The notes beneath the pieces were generated by a model. The model made no database searches, was not told where the DNA came from, and saw nothing but the letters and a program-made list of their open reading frames with translations. Below, one piece after another: positions 4,577 through 22,769 of a DNA stretch of 35,530 nt. The stretch is from Bacteroidales bacterium (lineage in GTDB: Bacteria > Bacteroidota > Bacteroidia > Bacteroidales > UBA12077). The stretch is from NCBI GenBank assembly GCA_019038645.1, contig JAHOYT010000056.1:1-35530 (forward strand), given 5' to 3'. The position numbers were made by a program, and so were the translations under genes. The stretch's first letter is position 1; each line of letters begins with the position of its first letter.

Positions 4577-4755
4577 CCTGTTAAATGTAAATGATCTAAT
4601 TGTTCAAAATGTAAATAATCGTTAAATAAAATCTGAAAATTCCTAAATTTAACAAATTTTGATCGGTTTTATTACTTAGTATTATTATAAGAAAATGTTT
4701 CTTTGCATAAGAATAGTTGTATAATAACAAATTATTAATTCTTAAAGTTTCAAAG

Positions 4756-7700
4756 ATGAAGATATTAATAATGAAACTACAGCAATTATGCTTTAGAACA
4801 AGGCTGATAATAGGCTTCAGTACAGTATTGATTATATCAGTTTTGATAATATCATTTTCCATTTTCAATATACAAAGAATAAGCAAACAGACTGATTTAA
4901 TATATCACCATTCTTTTGTGGTAAGTAATTCTGTAAGAGATCTAGATATATACTCAAATGCTATACATCGTACTATGGAGGATATCGTGTTAGCAGAGAA
5001 TTGGGCACAGATTGATAGTTCAATTGTAATTGTTAACGAATATGATAAAAAAATAAATATTGATTTCGATGTTGTATTTGAAAAATTTACAGGAAATAAA
5101 GAAATTGTTGATGAGGCTCATAATGTTTATATTGAGTGGGTGTTAATAAGAAATAAGGTGATTGAATTAATAAGAGATGGTAAAATCGGGGAAGCTATTA
5201 GTGTTGAAAAAAAGAAAGAAGCCGAACATGTAAAATTGCTTTTTGTAAAAAATAAGATATTGATTGATTTTGCAGAAAGCAGAGCTAATGATTTTTTATA
5301 TAATACTAAAAAAACTCAAAAACAAAGTATCGTTATACTTATATTAATATCAATAATCCTTCTTCTTATAAGTTTTATTATTTCATTAATAATTTCAAGA
5401 AGTATTTCCGAGCCAATTAGAAAATTTATTAGCATTATAAAGCAACTTCCAGAGTTTAATTTAATTAATAATTTCAGATCAATCAAAAATGAACAATTAA
5501 TGCTTGAAAAAGTCGGAATTCAACTGGCTGCAATATATAAAAACCTTAAATTCCAAATTGAAGCTAAAGCTAAAACAGAAGAAGAATTAAAAAAATATAG
5601 AGATCATCTGGAAGTACTTGTTGAGATACGTACTCATGAACTGGGTGAAAGAGTTAAAGAATTGAATTGCCTATATTCTATTTCTAAGATTATTGAAAAG
5701 CAGGAAATCAAACTTGACCAGATATTTCAGGAGATTGTTAATATAATTCCATCATCCTTACAGTATCCTGAAATAACCTGTGCACGAATTATTTTTAATG
5801 AGCAGGAGTTTATAACTCAGAATTTTCAGGATACAAAGTGGAAACAAAAAGCTAAAGTAATTATAGATAGTAAACATATTGGCACTCTGGAAGTTTGTTA
5901 TTTAAAAGAAAAACCGGAAATTGATGAGGGTGTATTTCTAAAAGATGAGAAAACACTTATTAATGTTATAGCTAAGCGTTTAGGAAGGGTCATAAAACAA
6001 AAACATACAGAAACTACACTTCAGAAAAACGAGGAAAGATTAAATTTTTTTATGCAATCCGCAACTGAAAGTTTTGCTATTTACGATTCCAATTTAGAAT
6101 TGATTAGTATTAATGATAAGGCATTGGAAGCATTTCCAACCGGAACGACCCGGGAAGATTTATTAAGGAAGAATATTTTAGAGCTATCCCCGGGTCTTAA
6201 AGAAACTGAAAGATATAATAAATATTTAGAAGTTATTGAAACAGGTAAACCAATAACTTTTAAGGAAGTTGGCCCTTATACAAAATTCGGTAATGTAATT
6301 TTGTCAATCAGTGCATTTAAAGTAGGCGAAGGACTTGGTTTAATTTATAATGACATTACAGAACGTGTGCGTGCTGAAGAGGAGATTCGTCTTCAAAGCC
6401 AAATAATGTTAAATATGCCTGAAGGTATTTATATTGTAGGAATTGATGATGAAATAATCAGGTATACAAATGAGAAATTCGAAAAAATGTTCGGCTATAA
6501 TTCGAAAGAGATGATTGGTAAGCATGTATCTGTTGTTAATGCACCTTCCAATAAAACAAGTAAGGAGGTTGCAAAAGAAATTATGTATATTATGAAAAAA
6601 GCGGGTGAATGGCGCGGTGAAATCGAAAATATCAAAAAAGATGGAACTCGTTTCTGGTGTTATGCTATAGTTTCTATATTTAATCATCCGGTATATGGAG
6701 ATGTATATTTATCTGTTCATACAGACATAACTGAGCGTAAACATATGGAAACGAGAATTAAGGAAAGTGAAAAAAAATATCGGGAAGCTGAACGAATTGC
6801 CAGGCTGGGACACTGGGAGTTTGATGTTAAAAATAATAAATTGTATTGGTCGGATGAAATATTTAGACAATTTGGATTAGAACCACAAGAATTTGAACCT
6901 ACATTTGAAATATTATCTCAATATTTTCATCCTGACGATAGAGATTCTGTAAATAAAGCATTTTTTGAATCTGTAAAAAATAATACACCTTATGATTTAG
7001 AACACAGGATATTGCTAAAAACCGGTGAGGTAAAATATGTAAATACAAAGGGTCAGGCAGAATTTAGTGAAACCGGAGAGCTTGTTCGTTCAATAGGAAT
7101 GACTTTAGATATAACAGATAGAAAAATAGCTGAACAAGCACTTAAGGAAAGTGAATACAAATTCAGGGCAATTACAAACCATGCAACAGAGGGTATTACA
7201 GTTGCTGACATGGACGGAAATTATGTTTTTGTAAATCCTTCCTTCTGTAAAATGTCGGGATATACTGAAAAAGAACTTTTAAAAATGACCGTTTTTGACA
7301 CGAAAGCTAAAAATCAAAGACACACAAGTTTTAATGATCGCAAATCTAAAATGGCAGGTTTGCCTGTACATGTTAACCTACAAAGAAAAGACGGAATAGA
7401 ATATATAACAGAGGTAATTGGGAATAAAATAGAAATTAATAAACAGGAATTTGTTCTTAGAACCATAAGAGATATTACAAGGAAAGTAAAAGCCGAACAA
7501 GAACTAATTAAAGCAAAAGAAGATGCAGAAGATGCCAATCAGGCAAAAAGCAAGTTCCTGTCACGTATGAGCCACGAACTACGTACACCATTAAACAGCA
7601 TTTTGGGATATAGCCAAATTCTTAGAGAAGAAAAAAATATAACTAGAAAACAAAAAGATCAGATAGATACGGTGCTAAGCAGTGGACAATACTTGTCGAA

Positions 7701-12649: not shown

Positions 12650-13060
12650 ATGGATACTGTTATTAAAATAATTATTGTTGATGATCATGATTTTTATAGA
12701 GAGGCATTAAAATTACATTTTTCATATACAAAAAAGTATGAAGTAATTGGAGAAGCATCAAATGGGGAAGAATTTTTAAAATTATTAGAAAAAGAACTGC
12801 CGGATGTGGTGTTAATGGATATAAATATGCCTAAAATGAATGGAGAGGAAGCTACAAAACTATCTGTAAATTATTATGGTAAAGCAATGAAAATTATTGC
12901 ATTAACAATGCATGAAGAATTCGAATACCTAAAAGGAATGATTGAGGCAGGAATTTCAGGATATTTATATAAAAATAGTATGGTAGATCAATTGGAACAT
13001 GCTATAGATGTTGTAATAGGAGGGAGTTTATATTTCCAGAAAGGAAAGAATAGCCGCTAA
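12650..13060 (+). CDS. stand-alone receiver protein (NarL-type receiver without HTH)
   Basis: A 136-residue single-domain response regulator. All phosphorylation residues are present: Asp11/Asp12, Asp57 in DVVLMDINMP, Thr in IIALTMHE and Lys in GYLYKNS. The sequence is of the NarL subfamily (IIVDDHDFYREALK). It stops at the inter-domain linker (GGSLYFQKGKNSR), so the DNA-binding half is missing. It may be a CheY-like phosphoprotein derived from a NarL regulator. It opens a run of four closely spaced genes (receiver, degenerate receiver, CheW, MCP). Confidence 0.9.
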   Translation: MDTVIKIIIVDDHDFYREALKLHFSYTKKYEVIGEASNGEEFLKLLEKELPDVVLMDINMPKMNGEEATKLSVNYYGKAMKIIALTMHEEFEYLKGMIEAGISGYLYKNSMVDQLEHAIDVVIGGSLYFQKGKNSR

Positions 13061-13081: not shown

Positions 13082-13459
13082 ATGAAAAGAAAAACTAATA
13101 TATTAATTATTGATGATCAGAAAACTCTCTTTTATCTATTACAATCCGTTTTACAAGAGGATGATTTTGATCTGAGGTTTTCAAACAACGTGTCGGGAAT
13201 AATTGATTTGATAGATAAAGACGAATTTAAGACAATCTTACTGAATGTCAAAGTAGATGGAGAAAAGGGAATGAAACTGTTTGAACAACTAAAAAGAGAT
13301 CAAAGGATTAAATCTATACCTATTATTTTGATTTTACCAAAACCTGATGTTAAAGCAATCAAATTATATCTTGAAAAAGGAGCTTGTGATTGTCTTGTAA
13401 AACCTCTCAATATGCAGGATGTCAAAAATAAAATATGTGCAGCTATAAATATGACTTAA
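13082..13459 (+). CDS. degenerate stand-alone receiver (Asp to Asn)
   Basis: A 125-residue receiver-fold protein with Asp11/Asp12 and a KPLN motif. The phospho-acceptor position is Asn55 (ILLNVKVDGEKG), encoded AAT. The usual Thr/Ser position is also hydrophobic (IIILILPKP). It should not be phosphorylated in the normal way; such pseudo-receivers generally act as protein-interaction modules. It is 21 nt after the intact receiver and 19 nt before cheW, consistent with one transcript. Confidence 0.88.
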   Translation: MKRKTNILIIDDQKTLFYLLQSVLQEDDFDLRFSNNVSGIIDLIDKDEFKTILLNVKVDGEKGMKLFEQLKRDQRIKSIPIILILPKPDVKAIKLYLEKGACDCLVKPLNMQDVKNKICAAINMT

Positions 13460-13478: not shown

Positions 13479-13982
13479 ATGGAAGAAAAATTAACACTAA
13501 ACTCTTACTTATCATTTAAGCTTGGGAAAGAAACTTTTGCATCTAATGTTAGTAAAGTTCTAAACATTTTGGAAATGATGAAAATCACAAAGGTTCCAAA
13601 ATCACCATCTTATATGAAAGGTGTAATAAACCTTAGGGGAGATGTTTTACCACTTGTCGATACAAGGTTAAAATTTGGAATGCCACAAACTGAAATATCT
13701 ACAAATACCTGTATTCTTGTATTAAATGTAGAAGTTGATGGTGAATCTATAAATATTGGAGCCCTGGTTGATTTTGTTCAGGAAGTTCTCGAACTTGGAG
13801 AATCTGACATACAGCCACCTCCCAATATCGGGAGTAAATATAAATCTGAATTCATTTACGGAATGGTTAAATCCGGTGAAGAGTTTATTATGCTACTCGA
13901 TATGGATAAGGTATTTTCTGTTGATGATATAGTTTCATTGAAAGAAGCTAATAATCAAGGCGTAAAAGAAAAAAAGGTTTAA
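13479..13982 (+). CDS. cheW: chemotaxis coupling protein CheW
   Basis: A 167-residue single CheW domain. Typical segments are FKLGKETFASNVSKVLNILE at the start, PKSPSYMKGVINLRGDVLPLVD (residues ~42-63) for the receptor/kinase interface, and FIYGMVKSGEEFIMLLDMDKVF near the end. CheW links chemoreceptors to the CheA P5 domain in membrane-proximal arrays. It lies 38 nt upstream of the chemoreceptor gene, so the two are likely partners. No cheA, cheR, cheB or cheD is present in the window, so its kinase must be elsewhere or replaced. Confidence 0.95.
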   Translation: MEEKLTLNSYLSFKLGKETFASNVSKVLNILEMMKITKVPKSPSYMKGVINLRGDVLPLVDTRLKFGMPQTEISTNTCILVLNVEVDGESINIGALVDFVQEVLELGESDIQPPPNIGSKYKSEFIYGMVKSGEEFIMLLDMDKVFSVDDIVSLKEANNQGVKEKKV

Positions 13983-14020: not shown

Positions 14021-16057
14021 ATGAATTGGAAAAATTTAAAGCTAGGTCGTAAATTCTTTATTTCTTTTGGAACAGTTATTATTCTACTTGTGTTTGTAGC
14101 AGTGATGGCATTAAATGGAATAAACGGATTAATCAATAATACAGACGCAATTATTGAAAGGAATGATTTTCAGGCTGAATTGGATCATAAACATGTTCAG
14201 CATTTACAATGGGCATCAGAACTTAACAAATTATTAACGGATAAGAATGTTACAGAATTATCAGTTGAAACAGATCCAACAAAGTGTGCATTTGGGAAGT
14301 GGTATTATAGTGATGAAAGAAAACATGCCGAAGAAATGACTCCTGAACTTAAGCCACTGTTTGCTGCAATTGAAGAACCTCACAAGCATCTTCATGTATC
14401 GGCCATAAAGATCGGAGACGTATTTCATCAGGCTGATGAGGAAGTTAGTGCCCAGTTGAGAGATGCAAAATCAGCACATTTACTTTGGACACATAAAATT
14501 AAAGATGTACTAATTGAAAGAAGTTCACGCCTGGATGTTCAAACAGATCCTACTCAATGTCAATTTGGGAAATGGATAAATAGTGACTATGTTGAACAAC
14601 TACGAAAAGAAAATCCTGAATTAGATAATTTGTTAACAAAGATAGAAGCTCCACATAGAGAACTTCATGAAAGCGCTATTCACATTGAAGAGTTGCTTAA
14701 GGAAGGTGATTTTTCGGGGGCACACGATTATTATATTGTAAATACTGAAAATTACGCTGTTCAAACTCTTGGAATTGTAGATGAAATGGTTGCATGGAAT
14801 GATAATAACCTGAATGGCATGCATGAGGCTAATAAAATTTATAATACCGAAACATTAGCACATCTCAAAGAGGTAGGTGGCATGTTCGATAATATAATTA
14901 ATATATCTGCAGGAATTGCTTCTAATGTAAATAAATCAATGATTCAGAATGCTTTAACAACCAGAATGGGGGTTATCCTTTTTAGTTTACTAGCTACCGT
15001 TATAGCTATTATATTGGCCTTAATAATTACTAAAGGCATTGTTAATCCCGTTAGAAAAAGCGTTCAACTGGCGAATGATATAGCAAAAGGAGATTTAACT
15101 TCAAACATCGACATTGATCAGAAAGATGAGATAGGACAATTAGCCAGTGCATTGCAAATGATGACAGGTAAATTAATAGAAATTGTAACAAGTATAAAAG
15201 ATGGTTCAGAAAATATTGCAACAGCAAGTCAGCAGATGAGCTCAACATCACAGCAAATGTCGCAAGGGGCAAGTGAACAGGCGTCTTCTGCTGAAGAAGT
15301 ATCATCATCGATGGAAGAAATGGCATCAAATATTCAGCAAAATACCGATAATGCACAACAAACGGAAAAGATTGCAATTAATGCTTCCGAAGGTATAAAT
15401 AAAGGTAATGCATCAACCGAAATTTCAGTTAACGCAATGAAAAAAATTGCAGAAAAAATTACAATTGTTAATGATATTGCATTTCAAACTAATATACTTG
15501 CTTTAAATGCTGCCGTTGAAGCTGCACGTGCAGGTGAACATGGTAAAGGATTTGCCGTGGTTGCTGCTGAAGTAAGAAAGTTAGCCGAAAGAAGTAAGGT
15601 TGCTGCCGATGAAATAGATCAGCTTTCACGCGAAGGAGTGAAGGTTTCGGAAGAGGCCGGAACACAACTGGCAGAAATTGTACCTGAAATTGAGAAAACA
15701 GCAAAATTAGTTCAGGAAATAGCTGCTGCAAGTATGGAACAAAATAGTGGAGCCGATCAGGTAAATAGTGCCATACAACAACTAAACCAGGTAACTCAGC
15801 AAAACGCAGCTGCATCTGAAGAAATGGCTACCGGCTCTGAAGAACTTTCAAGTCAGGCAGAACAACTTCAGGATATAATTTCATATTTTAAAATTGATAA
15901 TGTAGAATCCCGTAAGATGCAAATTAAGGCTGTTAAGAAGAATGTAATTAATACCCATAAACCTGTTGAAAAGAAAGAAGATACATCAAAAGGAAAAGGT
16001 GTTGATTTAGAAATGTATAATGAGGCTTCAACGGATAAAGAGTATGAAAAATATTAA
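14021..16057 (+). CDS. methyl-accepting chemoreceptor with tandem periplasmic CZB zinc-binding domains
   Basis: A 678-residue transmembrane chemoreceptor. TM1 is ~12-31 and TM2 ~317-337. Two CZB-like modules lie between them. Module 1 has His61 (HLQW), Cys89 (CAFGKW), His121 and His125. Module 2 has His153 (HLLW), Cys180 (CQFGKW), His212 and His216. Each gives the 3-His/1-Cys zinc set in the same order and spacing. HAMP follows (~338-390), then the MCP signalling domain with the conserved hairpin ([20 protein letters not shown]) and Gln/Glu-rich methylation helices. There is a basic 50-residue tail. CZB domains are usually cytoplasmic, so two in the periplasmic position are unusual. Zinc, or oxidant attack on the Cys ligand, is the inferred stimulus. 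Confidence 0.95.
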
Positions 16058-16337: not shown

Positions 16338-19300
16338 ATGAAATCAAAGCCTACCTATGAAGAATTAGAAAAAAAGCTTCAATATTCGGAAGAAAAAAAC
16401 GAGATAATAAATAGCGTTAAAGAGACCTACAATATTATTGAGAGAAGCCCGGTAGTTGTATTTTTATGGAAAAATATTGAAAATTGGCCTGTTGAGTTTG
16501 TATCAAAAAATGTAAAAGATATTTTTGGCTATTCTGCCAAAGATTTCATTAATAGCAAAGTAGTGTATGCCGGAATAATCTATCCTGCAGATCTTCAAAG
16601 AGTATCTGATGAAGTAAGTGAAGCAGGCAAAAGCAATATAGTTTCGTTTAAACATAAACCCTACCGTATTGTGAATAAGTTAGGAGAGATTAAATGGATA
16701 GAAGATATAACCTATATCAGAAGAAATGAAAAAGGTGAAATCATATATTATGAAGGAGTAATATTGGATATTACTGATCGAAAAGGGGGAGAGCAATCCC
16801 TAATGGATAATAAGATATTGCAGGATAAAATTTTGAATACATTTTATAATAGTGTATACTTAAGTTCCTCCGATTATGAAATTCAGTATTTGAATCCTGC
16901 AATGATTAAGAAGATTGGATATAATGCAGTTGGTGAAAAATGCTATAAAGCAATCTATAATAGAAATAAAGTATGTGAAGATTGTTACTTTAATAATCTG
17001 AAAGAAAACAATAAGAAACTATCTATTGAAAAAGTCAGTACTGATAAGTTTTATCTTATTGAATCGATATTGCTTGAGAATAATGCCAAGCTTACTGTTT
17101 ATCACGACATTACAGAGAAGAAGCAAAGCGTATTGTTTAAGCAAAAGAACGAAGAGCTTTCAATACTAAACAAAAAATATCGGGAGCAGAATGACAAACT
17201 TGAAAAAGCACAAAAAGATCTTAAAGCAAGTGAAGAAAGGTATAAAGAAGCACAGAAATTGGCACATCTCGGGAATTGGGAGCAGGATTTTATAAATAAA
17301 AAATTATTTTGGTCTGAAGAAGTTTATAGAATATTTGGACTACAACCTTCTGAATTAGAGCCAATTTATGAAGTTTTCTTAAACTGTGTTCATCCGGATG
17401 ATAGAGCCTTTGTAAATTACGCACTTACTATTTCACTAAAGAATAAATCTACATTTAATTTGGCATATAGGTTATTATTAGAATCAGGAGAATTAAAATA
17501 TGTCGATCAAATTTGCAGGACAGAATATGATTATAAGGGTAATATTGTTAAATCTACAGGAACTATTTTAGATATAACCGAAAGAGAAAAGAATGCAAAA
17601 GTAAAAGATATTCTTTTAACAATTAATCAGGAATCAGCTAAAGCAGATGATGTTGAACAATTAGCTCCTAAAATACAAAATGAATTAAATAAAATATTCA
17701 ATACAGAAAATTTCTATATAGCATTGTATGATAAAAAAACTGAAACTTATTCATTTCCCTATCACAATGATAAATATGATAAAGAATATGATTATAAAAA
17801 TAAGAGTTATAAAATAGAAAAATCATTAACCGACTATGTAAGGGAAGGGAAAAAAGCTAAATTAATTAACTCTGAAATAAAAAAGGAGCTATTTAAAAAG
17901 GGCTTAATTGAAGAATATGGAAAGCATTCACAAGTTTGGATAGGTGCCCCATTAATTAATTCAAAGAAATTTTCGTATGGAGTTATTGCCATTCAAAGCT
18001 ATGATAATGCAAAGGCATATAATTATGATGATCTTTCTATATTGAATTATGTAGCTAAAAATATAAGTAAGTTAATTGAAAAAAAACAAGCTGAAAATTA
18101 TTTAAAAAAAAGTGAAGAAAAATACAGGATGCTTTATGAAACAGCAAATGATGCCTTATTAATTATGAATAATGAAATTTTTATTGATTGTAATAAAAAA
18201 GCACTTGAAATGTTTGCTTGTACAAAAGACCAAATAATAGGAGTTGCTCCATACGAATTTAGTCCGGAGTTTCAGCCGGATGGCAGGAAGTCAAAAGAAA
18301 AAGCCTTGGAAAAAATAAATGATGCAGTAAAAGGTAATCATAAAACCTTTGAATGGGTTCATACAAAATATGATGGAACAGTGTTTTGTGCTGAGATAAG
18401 TTTAAATACATTCGAATTAAATAATATAAATGTAATTCAGACAATAGTTAGAGATGTATCTGAAAGGAAAAAATTTGAAAAAGCACTGAAACAAAAAAAC
18501 GAAGAGCTTAAGGCTGCTGAAGAAGAATTAAGATCTTCAAATGATGAGTTACACTGGGCAAATGTCGAGCTTGAAAAAAATATCCGGGAAATTTTTCTTG
18601 CTAAAGAAAAAGCAGGAGAAAGCAGTAACCTAAAATCTGCATTTCTGACAAATATATCACATGAAATCCGTACACCTATGAATGGTATAAATGGATTTAC
18701 AGAATTAATAGATAGCAATAATCTTAATGAAAAAACCAGAAAACTATACATTGAGATTATTAAACAAAGCAGCAAACAGCTTTTATCAATAATTGATGAT
18801 GTATTAGATATTTCTAAAATTGAAACCGGGCAAATGGTAATTAGAAATAAAGCAGTAGATATAAACAAGATGTTATCAGACCTTTATGAATCTTTCGTGA
18901 GTAATGCAAAAACCAAAAACATAAATCTTATATTTAAAAATGCCTTATCAGAAAAGCAATGTTTAATATTTTCAGATGAAACTAAAACCAAGCAAATATT
19001 ATCAAATCTTATTAATAATGCATTAAAATTTACACAGATAGGATTTGTTGAGTTTGGTTATATTATAAAAAGTAATTTTCTCGAATTTTATGTGAAGGAT
19101 TCAGGAATTGGTATATCTCCCGACAATCATGCTAAAATATTTGACAGATTCAGACAACTGGAACTTACATATTCTAGAAAGTATGGAGGAACAGGTTTGG
19201 GTTTATCTATTTCAAAAGAATTAGTTGAAATGCTGGGAGGAAAAATTTGGTTAAATTCTGAGTTAAATAATGGCTCAACATTTCACTTTACTATTCCTTA

Positions 19301-19757
19301 TAAGACAGTTAAAGAGGGTAATTTAATAAAAGAACAAGACCTAATAACAAAATTTCCTGATTGGAGTAAATTCACAATACTAATTGCAGAAGACGAAAAA
19401 ATGAATCTTTTTTATCTACAAGAAGTATTAAATGCAACAAATGTTAATCTTCTACATGCAGTAAACGGCAAAGAAGCTGTTGATCTTTGTGAAGCTAAAG
19501 ATAATATTGACTTGGTTCTTATGGATATTAAAATGCCAAAAATGAATGGTTTTGAAGCCACAAAGCTAATAAAACAAATGAAGCCTAAGATGCCAATAAT
19601 TGTACAATCAGCTTATGCAATGGTTAAAGACAAAAATAGAGCTTTACAGTTTGGTTGTGACGATTATATTAGTAAACCCATAAATCATTCTGAATTAATA
19701 AGAATTATTGGGGAGAATATTGATAAAGGCTATAACCAGAACAGGAGCATTTTTTAG
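16338..19757 (+). CDS. hybrid sensor histidine kinase with PAS, GAF and receiver domains
   Basis: A 1139-residue soluble hybrid kinase. Domains: PAS (~25-151), Cys-motif PAS (~158-265; Cys202, Cys213, Cys216), coiled coil, PAS_3-type (~302-418, AHLGNWEQDF...HPDDR), GAF (~422-582), PAS (~592-708), coiled coil, HisKA with His775 (TNISHEIRTPMNG), HATPase (SNLINNALKFT, DSGIGIS, GGTGLGLS), and a C-terminal receiver with Asp1063 (LVLMDIKMPKMNG) and intact Thr/Lys equivalents. There is no membrane segment. No DNA-binding output is adjacent. The next gene is another receiver lacking the acceptor Asp, so the route out of this kinase is unclear. It is separated by a 280-bp gap and probably has its own promoter. 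Confidence 0.93.
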   Translation: MKSKPTYEELEKKLQYSEEKNEIINSVKETYNIIERSPVVVFLWKNIENWPVEFVSKNVKDIFGYSAKDFINSKVVYAGIIYPADLQRVSDEVSEAGKSNIVSFKHKPYRIVNKLGEIKWIEDITYIRRNEKGEIIYYEGVILDITDRKGGEQSLMDNKILQDKILNTFYNSVYLSSSDYEIQYLNPAMIKKIGYNAVGEKCYKAIYNRNKVCEDCYFNNLKENNKKLSIEKVSTDKFYLIESILLENNAKLTVYHDITEKKQSVLFKQKNEELSILNKKYREQNDKLEKAQKDLKASEERYKEAQKLAHLGNWEQDFINKKLFWSEEVYRIFGLQPSELEPIYEVFLNCVHPDDRAFVNYALTISLKNKSTFNLAYRLLLESGELKYVDQICRTEYDYKGNIVKSTGTILDITEREKNAKVKDILLTINQESAKADDVEQLAPKIQNELNKIFNTENFYIALYDKKTETYSFPYHNDKYDKEYDYKNKSYKIEKSLTDYVREGKKAKLINSEIKKELFKKGLIEEYGKHSQVWIGAPLINSKKFSYGVIAIQSYDNAKAYNYDDLSILNYVAKNISKLIEKKQAENYLKKSEEKYRMLYETANDALLIMNNEIFIDCNKKALEMFACTKDQIIGVAPYEFSPEFQPDGRKSKEKALEKINDAVKGNHKTFEWVHTKYDGTVFCAEISLNTFELNNINVIQTIVRDVSERKKFEKALKQKNEELKAAEEELRSSNDELHWANVELEKNIREIFLAKEKAGESSNLKSAFLTNISHEIRTPMNGINGFTELIDSNNLNEKTRKLYIEIIKQSSKQLLSIIDDVLDISKIETGQMVIRNKAVDINKMLSDLYESFVSNAKTKNINLIFKNALSEKQCLIFSDETKTKQILSNLINNALKFTQIGFVEFGYIIKSNFLEFYVKDSGIGISPDNHAKIFDRFRQLELTYSRKYGGTGLGLSISKELVEMLGGKIWLNSELNNGSTFHFTIPYKTVKEGNLIKEQDLITKFPDWSKFTILIAEDEKMNLFYLQEVLNATNVNLLHAVNGKEAVDLCEAKDNIDLVLMDIKMPKMNGFEATKLIKQMKPKMPIIVQSAYAMVKDKNRALQFGCDDYISKPINHSELIRIIGENIDKGYNQNRSIF

Positions 19758-21462: not shown

Positions 21463-21582
21463 TCTCATCTTTCTTTTAAAAGATTATCATATGCGTAGTG
21501 TAGCTACTCAAAACATGATTTATTTAAAGAAAATGAGACGTATTTCATTTTTATTCTTTTTTTTTGTTAAAAATTGAGTAGT

Positions 21583-22350
21583 ATGACTATACATTACGAA
21601 ACAAAATTAAAGACACTCTTTAAACTATTACAGCCAAACAATGTGGTAACAACTTCATTGTTGGATATTAATGGTGTATCCAGACACTTACGGAAATACT
21701 ATATAGAAAGTGGTTGGTTAGAAGCTTTGGGCAGAGGTGCTTATAAAAAACCTAATGACATAATAGAATGGCAAGGAGCTGTTAATGCAATTCAAAAACA
21801 AACAAAAACAAAAGTTCATGTTGGCGGATTATCAGCTTTGTCGATACAAGGATATGGTCATTATTTTAGGTTGAGTAAAGAAACTTTATATCTGTTTTCT
21901 CCACAAAGAAATAGGTTGCCAAAGTGGTTTACAGATTATAATTGGGATGTTGAATTATTTCACATACCAACTTCATTATTTCCTGATGACACAGGACTTA
22001 AAGAAATACTGATAAAACAAATATCTGTTACCACATCTTCACCTGAAAGAGCAATAATGGAATGCTTGCATTTAGCACCACAAAAAACAGACCTTGTTGA
22101 ATGTTATCAAGTATTTGAAGGATTAGTAAACTTAAAACCAAAGCTTATTACTGAATTATTATCTAATTGTAATTCTGTGAAAGTTAAACGTTTGTTTTTG
22201 TATATGGCAGAAAAAGCAAATCACCAGTGGTATAATTTTCTGAAAACTAAAAATATCAACTTAGGAAGTGGAGACAGAATGATTACAAAGAAGGGTGTTT
22301 ACAACTCAAAATATTTAATAACAATACCAAAAGAATTAGAAGAATTATGA
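21583..22350 (+). CDS. abiEi: type IV toxin-antitoxin AbiEi-family antitoxin
   Basis: A 255-residue protein from the ATG at 21583; the TTG at 21574 is less likely. The N-terminal winged-helix (~8-60: LLQPNNVVTTSLLDINGVSR... then GWLEALGRGAYKK) is the AbiEi DNA-binding domain that represses the operon. The body (VHVGGLSALSIQGYGHY, SPERAIMECL) is the AbiEi_3-type domain. The stop codon overlaps the next start as ATGA (22347-22350), the normal translational coupling of AbiE antitoxin and toxin. The gene looks intact, while its toxin partner is shortened. Confidence 0.9.
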   Translation: MTIHYETKLKTLFKLLQPNNVVTTSLLDINGVSRHLRKYYIESGWLEALGRGAYKKPNDIIEWQGAVNAIQKQTKTKVHVGGLSALSIQGYGHYFRLSKETLYLFSPQRNRLPKWFTDYNWDVELFHIPTSLFPDDTGLKEILIKQISVTTSSPERAIMECLHLAPQKTDLVECYQVFEGLVNLKPKLITELLSNCNSVKVKRLFLYMAEKANHQWYNFLKTKNINLGSGDRMITKKGVYNSKYLITIPKELEEL

Positions 22351-22769
22351 TTTCACTCAAATATAGAGAACAGGTAGATTTATTATTACAAGTTTTACCA
22401 TACGTAGCAAAAGAAAATATTTTTGCTTTGAAAGGCGGTACAGCTATTAATCTTTTTGTTAGAGATATGCCACGTTTATCCGTAGATATTGATTTGACTT
22501 ATTTACCACTTGATTCAAGAAATGATGCTCTAAAGAATATTCAAGATGGGCTAAGTAGAATAAAAGTAGATATTGAAAAGAATATTCAAGGAGTAAAAAT
22601 ACATACAGTTCCATTAAATGGTGGTACAGACGTAAAGTTAAATTGTCAGGGGCTGAATGCACAGATAAAAATAGAAGTAAATACAATTACCAGAGGAAAT
22701 GTATTCGATACAGAATTAATGCAGGTAGTTGAATCGGTACAAGATGGAACAGTTCAAAATTATTATTAA
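22347..22769 (+). CDS. abiEii: AbiEii-family nucleotidyltransferase toxin, C-terminally truncated
   Basis: 140 residues with the nucleotidyltransferase core. ALKGGTAINLF holds the GG(S/T) motif, followed by RLSVDIDLTY with the D-x-D metal ligands. AbiEii toxins are usually about twice this length; the second half, which carries further conserved motifs and helices, is absent. Coding stops at 22767-22769, and the unrelated ASCH gene begins 14 nt later, so the 3' half was deleted or replaced. It is probably inactive as a toxin, although the catalytic core motifs survive. Confidence 0.85.
   Translation: MISLKYREQVDLLLQVLPYVAKENIFALKGGTAINLFVRDMPRLSVDIDLTYLPLDSRNDALKNIQDGLSRIKVDIEKNIQGVKIHTVPLNGGTDVKLNCQGLNAQIKIEVNTITRGNVFDTELMQVVESVQDGTVQNYY

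Follow-up and report, generated by a model that had tools for sequence, protein, structure and literature searches.

The chemoreceptor gene at positions 14021–16057 of contig JAHOYT010000056.1 from a Bacteroidales bacterium (GenBank assembly GCA_019038645.1) raises the question of how a zinc-binding sensor module, the CZB domain, is built in two copies into the extracytoplasmic part of a membrane receptor. The whole stretch analysed, 35,530 nucleotides in length, is referred to here as the window. In our reading, to which we assign a probability of about two in three, the protein is a transmembrane chemoreceptor with a periplasmic two-storey tower of CZB zinc modules, in which CZB2 is nested within CZB1 and zinc occupancy would signal to CheA. 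The observed basis of the tower comprises the domains, the sequence topology, conserved ligands, a length rule, a repeat rule and the predicted monomer fold. The parts of the receptor are located as follows.

14021..16057, + strand: tandem-CZB chemoreceptor, a methyl-accepting chemotaxis protein (MCP) of 678 amino acids (open reading frame, ORF, and domain search)
14054..14113, + strand: first transmembrane helix (TM1), residues 12–31, continuous in the model with the first helix of CZB1 as helix 8–73 (hydropathy, model)
14201..14413, + strand: CZB1, membrane-proximal, with ligands H61, C89, H121 and H125 (Pfam match)
14477..14686, + strand: CZB2, membrane-distal, with ligands H153, C180, H212 and H216 (Pfam match, superposition with 3T9O)
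14723..14830, + strand: return repeat R-first, about residues 235–270, last helix of CZB2 (36-residue repeat, superposition with 3T9O; exact borders placed by eye on the motif)
14831..14938, + strand: return repeat R-last, about residues 271–306, presumed last helix of CZB1 (36-residue repeat, couplings)
14969..15031, + strand: second transmembrane helix (TM2), residues 317–337 (hydropathy)
15026..15175, + strand: HAMP domain, residues 336–385 (Pfam)
15347..15796, + strand: MCP signalling domain (MCPsignal), residues 443–592 (Pfam)

A search of the whole receptor protein against the Pfam CZB family (PF13682) returned two stretches with a combined score of 101.1 bits, relative to a curated cut-off of 29.4. 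Each stretch exceeds this cut-off alone, with 60.9 bits (E = 4.7e-16) for 14201–14413 and 51.5 bits (E = 4.0e-13) for 14477–14686, values far beyond chance that rule out a fortuitous motif. An NCBIfam search of the receptor gave partial matches only, far under their cut-offs. The hydropathy peaks are centred at residues 15–30 and 320–336, the N-terminus contains four Lys/Arg and no Asp/Glu in its first 11 residues, and the HAMP domain directly follows TM2. Because of this charge distribution and the position of HAMP, a periplasmic location of the CZB pair is supported and a cytoplasmic one is ruled out. The plan of a membrane-bound chemoreceptor is complete, running from TM1 through a periplasmic ligand-binding domain (LBD) and TM2 to the HAMP and MCP signalling domains; its CZBs occupy the N-terminal extracytoplasmic region, as in periplasmic CZB chemoreceptors. 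A preliminary description of the locus had claimed this ORF, to the exact coordinate, two transmembrane helices in these positions, and tandem CZBs in an extracytoplasmic sensor position; Pfam, sequence topology and the AlphaFold2 model described below agree with that arrangement.

The same description had assigned a set of three histidines and one cysteine to each module. All eight residues lie where it placed them, both sets are complete, and C89 and C180 are the sole cysteines of the protein. The ligands are fully kept in 10 tandem LBDs from the same genus and family. In a broader alignment of 72 tandem LBDs, consisting of the window receptor and 71 ORFs from 70 loci, H61, C89, H121, H125, H212 and H216 are present in 72/72, and H153 and C180 in 70/72 each. 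The exceptions are locus L082, in which H153 is replaced by Gln, L054, in which C180 is replaced by Ser, and L106, which deviates at both positions. The Gln of L106 looks real, and a Cys exists further on, out of register in the alignment owing to an insert within module 2 of this protein. Both receptor sites probably bind zinc. The insert, shared by L106 (an 866-amino-acid ORF at about 4752–7349) and L150, spans about 150 residues between the first helix and the Cys helix of module 2, and that of L106 appears Cache-like by eye. On the minus strand of L088, a 361-residue double CZB-like protein without an MCP motif adjoins a tandem-CZB receptor gene; by eye, it has no zinc ligands.

The AlphaFold2 monomer model (pLDDT 92.5, pTM 0.71) contains helices at residues 8–73, 108–134, 140–166 and 199–227, followed by an unbroken helix at 231–355, and has the CZB fold of PF13682. 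Chain B of the DgcZ CZB structure (3T9O_B) superposes on residues 138–262, with its own last helix on R-first; therefore, the initial part of this return helix is the last helix of CZB2 in the model. Ligand convergence was viewed through this superposition, which concerns module 2. Among the top 100 couplings, 15 and 15 are matched, as opposed to 7 and 5 that are crossed. By its position and these couplings, the next part of the return helix, R-last, would serve CZB1. Since CZB2 is closed by the first part of the return and the next part is assigned to CZB1, the modules look nested in the order CZB1-CZB2-R2-R1 (1-2-2'-1'), with the CZB1 portion of this nesting being the conditional one. The preliminary description had anticipated two four-helix bundles; the tandem modules are present in the model, but they are not self-contained, as one long helix (231–355) after CZB2 returns through TM2. 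Its overall interpretation thus holds for the tandem extracytoplasmic CZBs, with the separate bundles corrected to a shared return helix on the basis of the model. In Foldseek by itself, the top ranks went to long coiled coils, and no match reached an E value under 0.001. A sequence search of the sensor against the PDB (326-residue query, E up to 1) found nothing, and a profile search against the PDB returned 27 sequences, nearly all on TM2/HAMP and none on a CZB.

A survey of architectures, as proposed in the preliminary description, revealed that tandem CZBs also occur outside this genome. The receptor's own genome encodes two tandem-CZB receptors, one in the window and the other on contig C10; the sensor of its third MCP is unseen because a contig end truncates the gene. 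Among 59 near genomes, including this one, 13 have a CZB match and 9 have close pairs in one frame, all in the same family; one of the 9 (G002) is truncated at the end of a contig. Within 395 genomes of the same phylum, a CZB occurs in 44 and a close pair in one frame in this genome only. In named genomes, a motif scan gave matches to 231 stretches; 206 of these were related, and the best 80, by construction those most similar to a double, were fetched. A two-CZB ORF is present at 71 of these 80 loci (counting L106 with its insert), a three-CZB ORF at four (L087, L090, L092 and L095), and a single CZB only at another four (L103, L107, L108 and L110, with L108 cut by a contig end). In L084 (Thermophagus xiamenensis, about 4809–6782), the gene for a tandem-CZB receptor runs over two frames, with the break inside CZB2, owing to either a frameshift or a sequencing error. 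The taxa named for related loci include Bacteroidales, Marinilabiliaceae, Latescibacterota, Planctomycetota, Spirochaetes, Zixibacteriota and Gemmatimonadales, as well as Pseudodesulfovibrio, Magnetococcales, Omnitrophota and Hydrogenedentota, among others. CZBs were detected in 96/297 genomes of the phylum of G460 (the genome of L063, named Pseudodesulfovibrio), with close pairs or triples in at least 16/297, and in 19/246 genomes of the phylum of G454 (L042, named Phycisphaerales), with doubles in 3. The relatives, such as the 71 doubles, rule out a genome-specific oddity. The class of G465 (L071, named Magnetococcales) is a CZB-rich group, with 2 to 18 matches in each of its 48/48 genomes; the Magnetococcales group lives at redox borders.

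These relatives mostly follow one size step per CZB. After repeats of one CZB stretch and stretches with X were dropped, 135 distinct CZB ORFs remained, and the 111 with transmembrane helices close on both sides entered the comparison. Those lacking such flanking helices include 18/38 singles and 6/89 doubles, and most of the ORFs left out are of the cytosolic type, cut by contig ends or masked. The distance from the last CZB to TM2 is 53–65 residues in 18/20 singles, 82–99 in 83/83 doubles and 129–133 in 8/8 triples. The two outlying singles, at 92 and 95 residues (L188 and L183), both carry a Gly/Pro-rich insert. The start-to-start period of the CZBs is 87–95 residues, except in the insert-bearing L106 and L150 (241 and 244), in which the return is unchanged at 95 residues. 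In a later survey that included the phylum of G454, the doubles L201 and L191 return over 92 and 89 residues and the singles L198 and L196 over 59 and 69, the last value lying outside the earlier range. Nine one-CZB proteins (L153, L154, L156, L159, L200, L204, L205, L207 and L212) have the CZB 106–147 residues past TM1 and a return of 89–103 residues. Judged by these distances, they seem to carry a lone recognisable CZB on a non-CZB first storey, giving a two-storey height; L193 (148 and 174) misfits this pattern. Most other singles in the two survey lists lack a transmembrane helix after the CZB.

The return segments carry a matching periodicity. A 30-column profile, built from 18 single-CZB proteins only, was slid over the return segments of the larger proteins. 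Its two best offsets from TM2 in doubles are -47 and -83, and its three best in triples are -47, -119 and -83, in each case spaced by steps of 36. Of 500 column shuffles that preserve the heptad phase, the number matching these scores was 0 and 0 for doubles and 0, 0 and 1 for triples. The absolute scores drop off away from TM2; taken in the same order as these offsets, they are 2.3 and -17.0 in doubles, where the average across all offsets is about -30, and 5.8, -4.2 and -10.2 in triples, where it is about -28. A HMMER scan gave a weaker signal, with two hits at 2 bits in 20/83 doubles, spaced by 35–37 residues in 18/20 of these, and three hits in 5/8 triples. One 36-residue return repeat per CZB is accordingly the favoured arrangement from sequence comparison, in which the extra copies appear diverged.

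The two storeys differ in their relationships. CZB1 of doubles is 44% identical to single CZBs, 55% to CZB1 of triples and 33.5% to CZB2 of doubles, and mean conservation within doubles is 52% for CZB1 and 35% for CZB2. Because CZB1 is nearer to the singles and to CZB1 of triples and is more conserved, we infer that the membrane-proximal module is probably the older one, and storeys would have been added on the far side. A recent duplication within the gene is ruled out by the identity of only 34% between CZB1 and CZB2 of the same protein (80 pairs) and is also contradicted by the tree, in which 72/83 CZB1 and 72/80 CZB2 domains of doubles have as their nearest neighbour a domain of matching position and copy number. 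Both query motifs lie in CZB1, and the higher conservation of this module might have been a mere bias of the query; loci obtained by family search and region fetch repeat the contrast, with 53% (24 domains) as compared with 32% (22), and speak against such a bias as the sole cause, in a partial control, as some of its genomes were themselves reached via the motif scan.

In the proposed mechanism, the chain would rise through TM1, the first helices of CZB1 and then those of CZB2, and descend as one long helix of two 36-residue repeats, giving first CZB2 and then CZB1 their last helix, before entering TM2 and HAMP. Free zinc would determine the zinc occupancy of the two periplasmic 3His/1Cys sites, or redox chemistry would do so by freeing or trapping zinc or by oxidising the Cys. 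A change in occupancy would alter how the long return helix packs and shift TM2, thereby changing the state of HAMP, the MCP domain and CheA. The signal, the direction of the response, the helix motion and the output are what we infer for such a tower. Periplasmic zinc or oxidant sensing by the receptor is plausible, and a periplasmic site would read the zinc pool more directly.

The sites might instead be structural, with zinc only stapling the helical tower and the true ligand being a small molecule that binds at another place in the bundles, as is the case for MCP2201 or McpS. We regard this as unlikely, since CZB2 of doubles averages 35% identity, yet its His and Cys residues are nearly always kept, and known CZBs respond to their zinc state, according to the accessible text of PMC12871147 and PMC13370339. 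If occupancy does matter, the stimulus could be an oxidant itself: HOCl, peroxide or oxygen species would attack the zinc-bound Cys in the periplasm, their first point of arrival. That the only two cysteines of the protein belong to the zinc-ligand sets speaks for such a sensor, as does the direct Cys oxidation proposed for CZBs in the available part of PMC8262984, whereas a 2026 preprint argues, in the portion available, that a CZB responds to the available zinc and not to direct oxidation when oxidant levels are low (PMC13370339). The named relatives, largely environmental metagenome-assembled genomes, sulfate reducers and magnetotactic taxa, also weigh weakly against direct oxidant sensing, judging from names alone, and we consider it rather doubtful.

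The length rule could also be an effect of coiled-coil packing, in which the return helix has to lengthen whenever the sensor is taller, with no need for one helix per module. A step of 35–36 residues is about five heptads, and the sequence signal is weak at the extra repeat sites, a point that counts against our nested tower. However, the profile derived from singles places precisely one site for each CZB in its top ranks and withstands heptad-preserving shuffles, and the last helix of 3T9O falls on R-first, making a pure packing effect quite improbable. The two-storey zinc tower is the reading retained here.

Two stacked helical modules on long helices are also present in the HBM sensor McpS (2YFA/2YFB), TorS and PilJ, none of which is known to have zinc sites, and the best rows of the comparison for each span both modules. 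These proteins resemble the receptor in plan only, because the rmsd over both modules is 7.1–8.9; no HBM family was among the receptor's Pfam hits up to E = 0.001. Helicobacter pylori TlpD and Salmonella Typhimurium McpA, each with a single CZB, likewise couple this domain to an MCP signalling domain. They differ in being soluble with a C-terminal CZB (PMC8262984, available text). The E. coli DgcZ CZB (PDB 3T9O) shares the 3His/1Cys ligands and superposes on module 2 including its last helix, but DgcZ has one CZB, which precedes a diguanylate cyclase and whose last helix comes directly next in the chain (same source). CZBs are read as zinc/HOCl sensors in that article, the TlpD zinc site is linked to the kinase state in the accessible text of PMC12871147, and zinc availability is argued to be a messenger of the outside redox state in that of the 2026 preprint (PMC13370339). 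Putative periplasmic CZBs have already been described, with 384 sequences, as rarer than cytosolic ones (Perkins et al. 2021, PMC8262984, available part). The window receptor resembles this group in having N-terminal, putatively extracytoplasmic CZBs in a membrane chemoreceptor, and the CAFGKWY motif of its CZB1 has the Ala after Cys reported for the group in the same text. In the available text of PMC8262984, more than one CZB per protein is not mentioned; the word "tandem" appears a single time, in connection with PAS/dCache, and the phrase "two CZB" never. The literature searched, which covered few subscription journals and no supplements, contained no account of CZBs in tandem, in double form or in pairs. 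The architecture may well be listed in domain databases, and what looks new is the construction, namely the tower rule, periplasmic CZBs themselves being known.

The receptor gene is flanked by candidate partners.

12650..13060, + strand: single-domain response regulator, CheY-like (Pfam PF00072)
13082..13459, + strand: single-domain response regulator (Pfam PF00072)
13479..13982, + strand: CheW, directly upstream of the receptor, likely coupling protein (Pfam PF01584)
16338..19757, + strand: PAS hybrid histidine kinase, downstream of the receptor (domain search)

Upstream of the contig C10 paralogue lie genes for a CheY-like regulator, CheA, CheW, CheR, a kinase, CheD, two more regulators and CheW; CheA, CheW, CheR and CheD are thus encoded there, in addition to the CheW of the window. 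Among the best 80 loci, many of them short, phmmer detected CheW nearby in 21 and CheA in 13. The receptor's genome contains a GldL match and no match to the FliG_C or PilT family, in an assembly listed as 96.9% complete, so that these absences are no proof. On these matches, gliding is a possible output, as is one that does not involve motility; a literature search on chemotaxis in gliding, flagella-less Bacteroidota found no direct paper. Elsewhere in the window, a DDE transposase gene (PF01609, 2319–3563) lies upstream of the sensor-kinase cluster, and an AbiEi/AbiEii type IV toxin-antitoxin pair occupies 21574–22769; its AbiEii match spans profile positions 2–126 of 238 only, and the gene may be short.

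Because the one-, two- and three-storey relatives mostly follow one size rule, these findings suggest a modular tower for zinc or redox sensing outside the cytoplasm. As a more tentative extension, which we doubt in its full form, the tower would be extendable, with equal numbers of CZBs and 36-residue return helices added by membrane-distal nested insertion to give quantised heights. Sulfide precipitates zinc, and stacked sites of unlike affinity might let bacteria at oxic-sulfidic borders read free zinc as a wide-range proxy of redox position. Here, a zinc/redox sensor familiar mainly from the cytoplasm is placed, in several copies, on the outer side of the membrane, and the gain in height of a chemoreceptor sensor is given a rule that is simple and can be tested. 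The natural one-, two- and three-module variants on one plan provide a means to ask how a signal from the far site reaches TM2 and whether stacked zinc sites broaden the sensing range.
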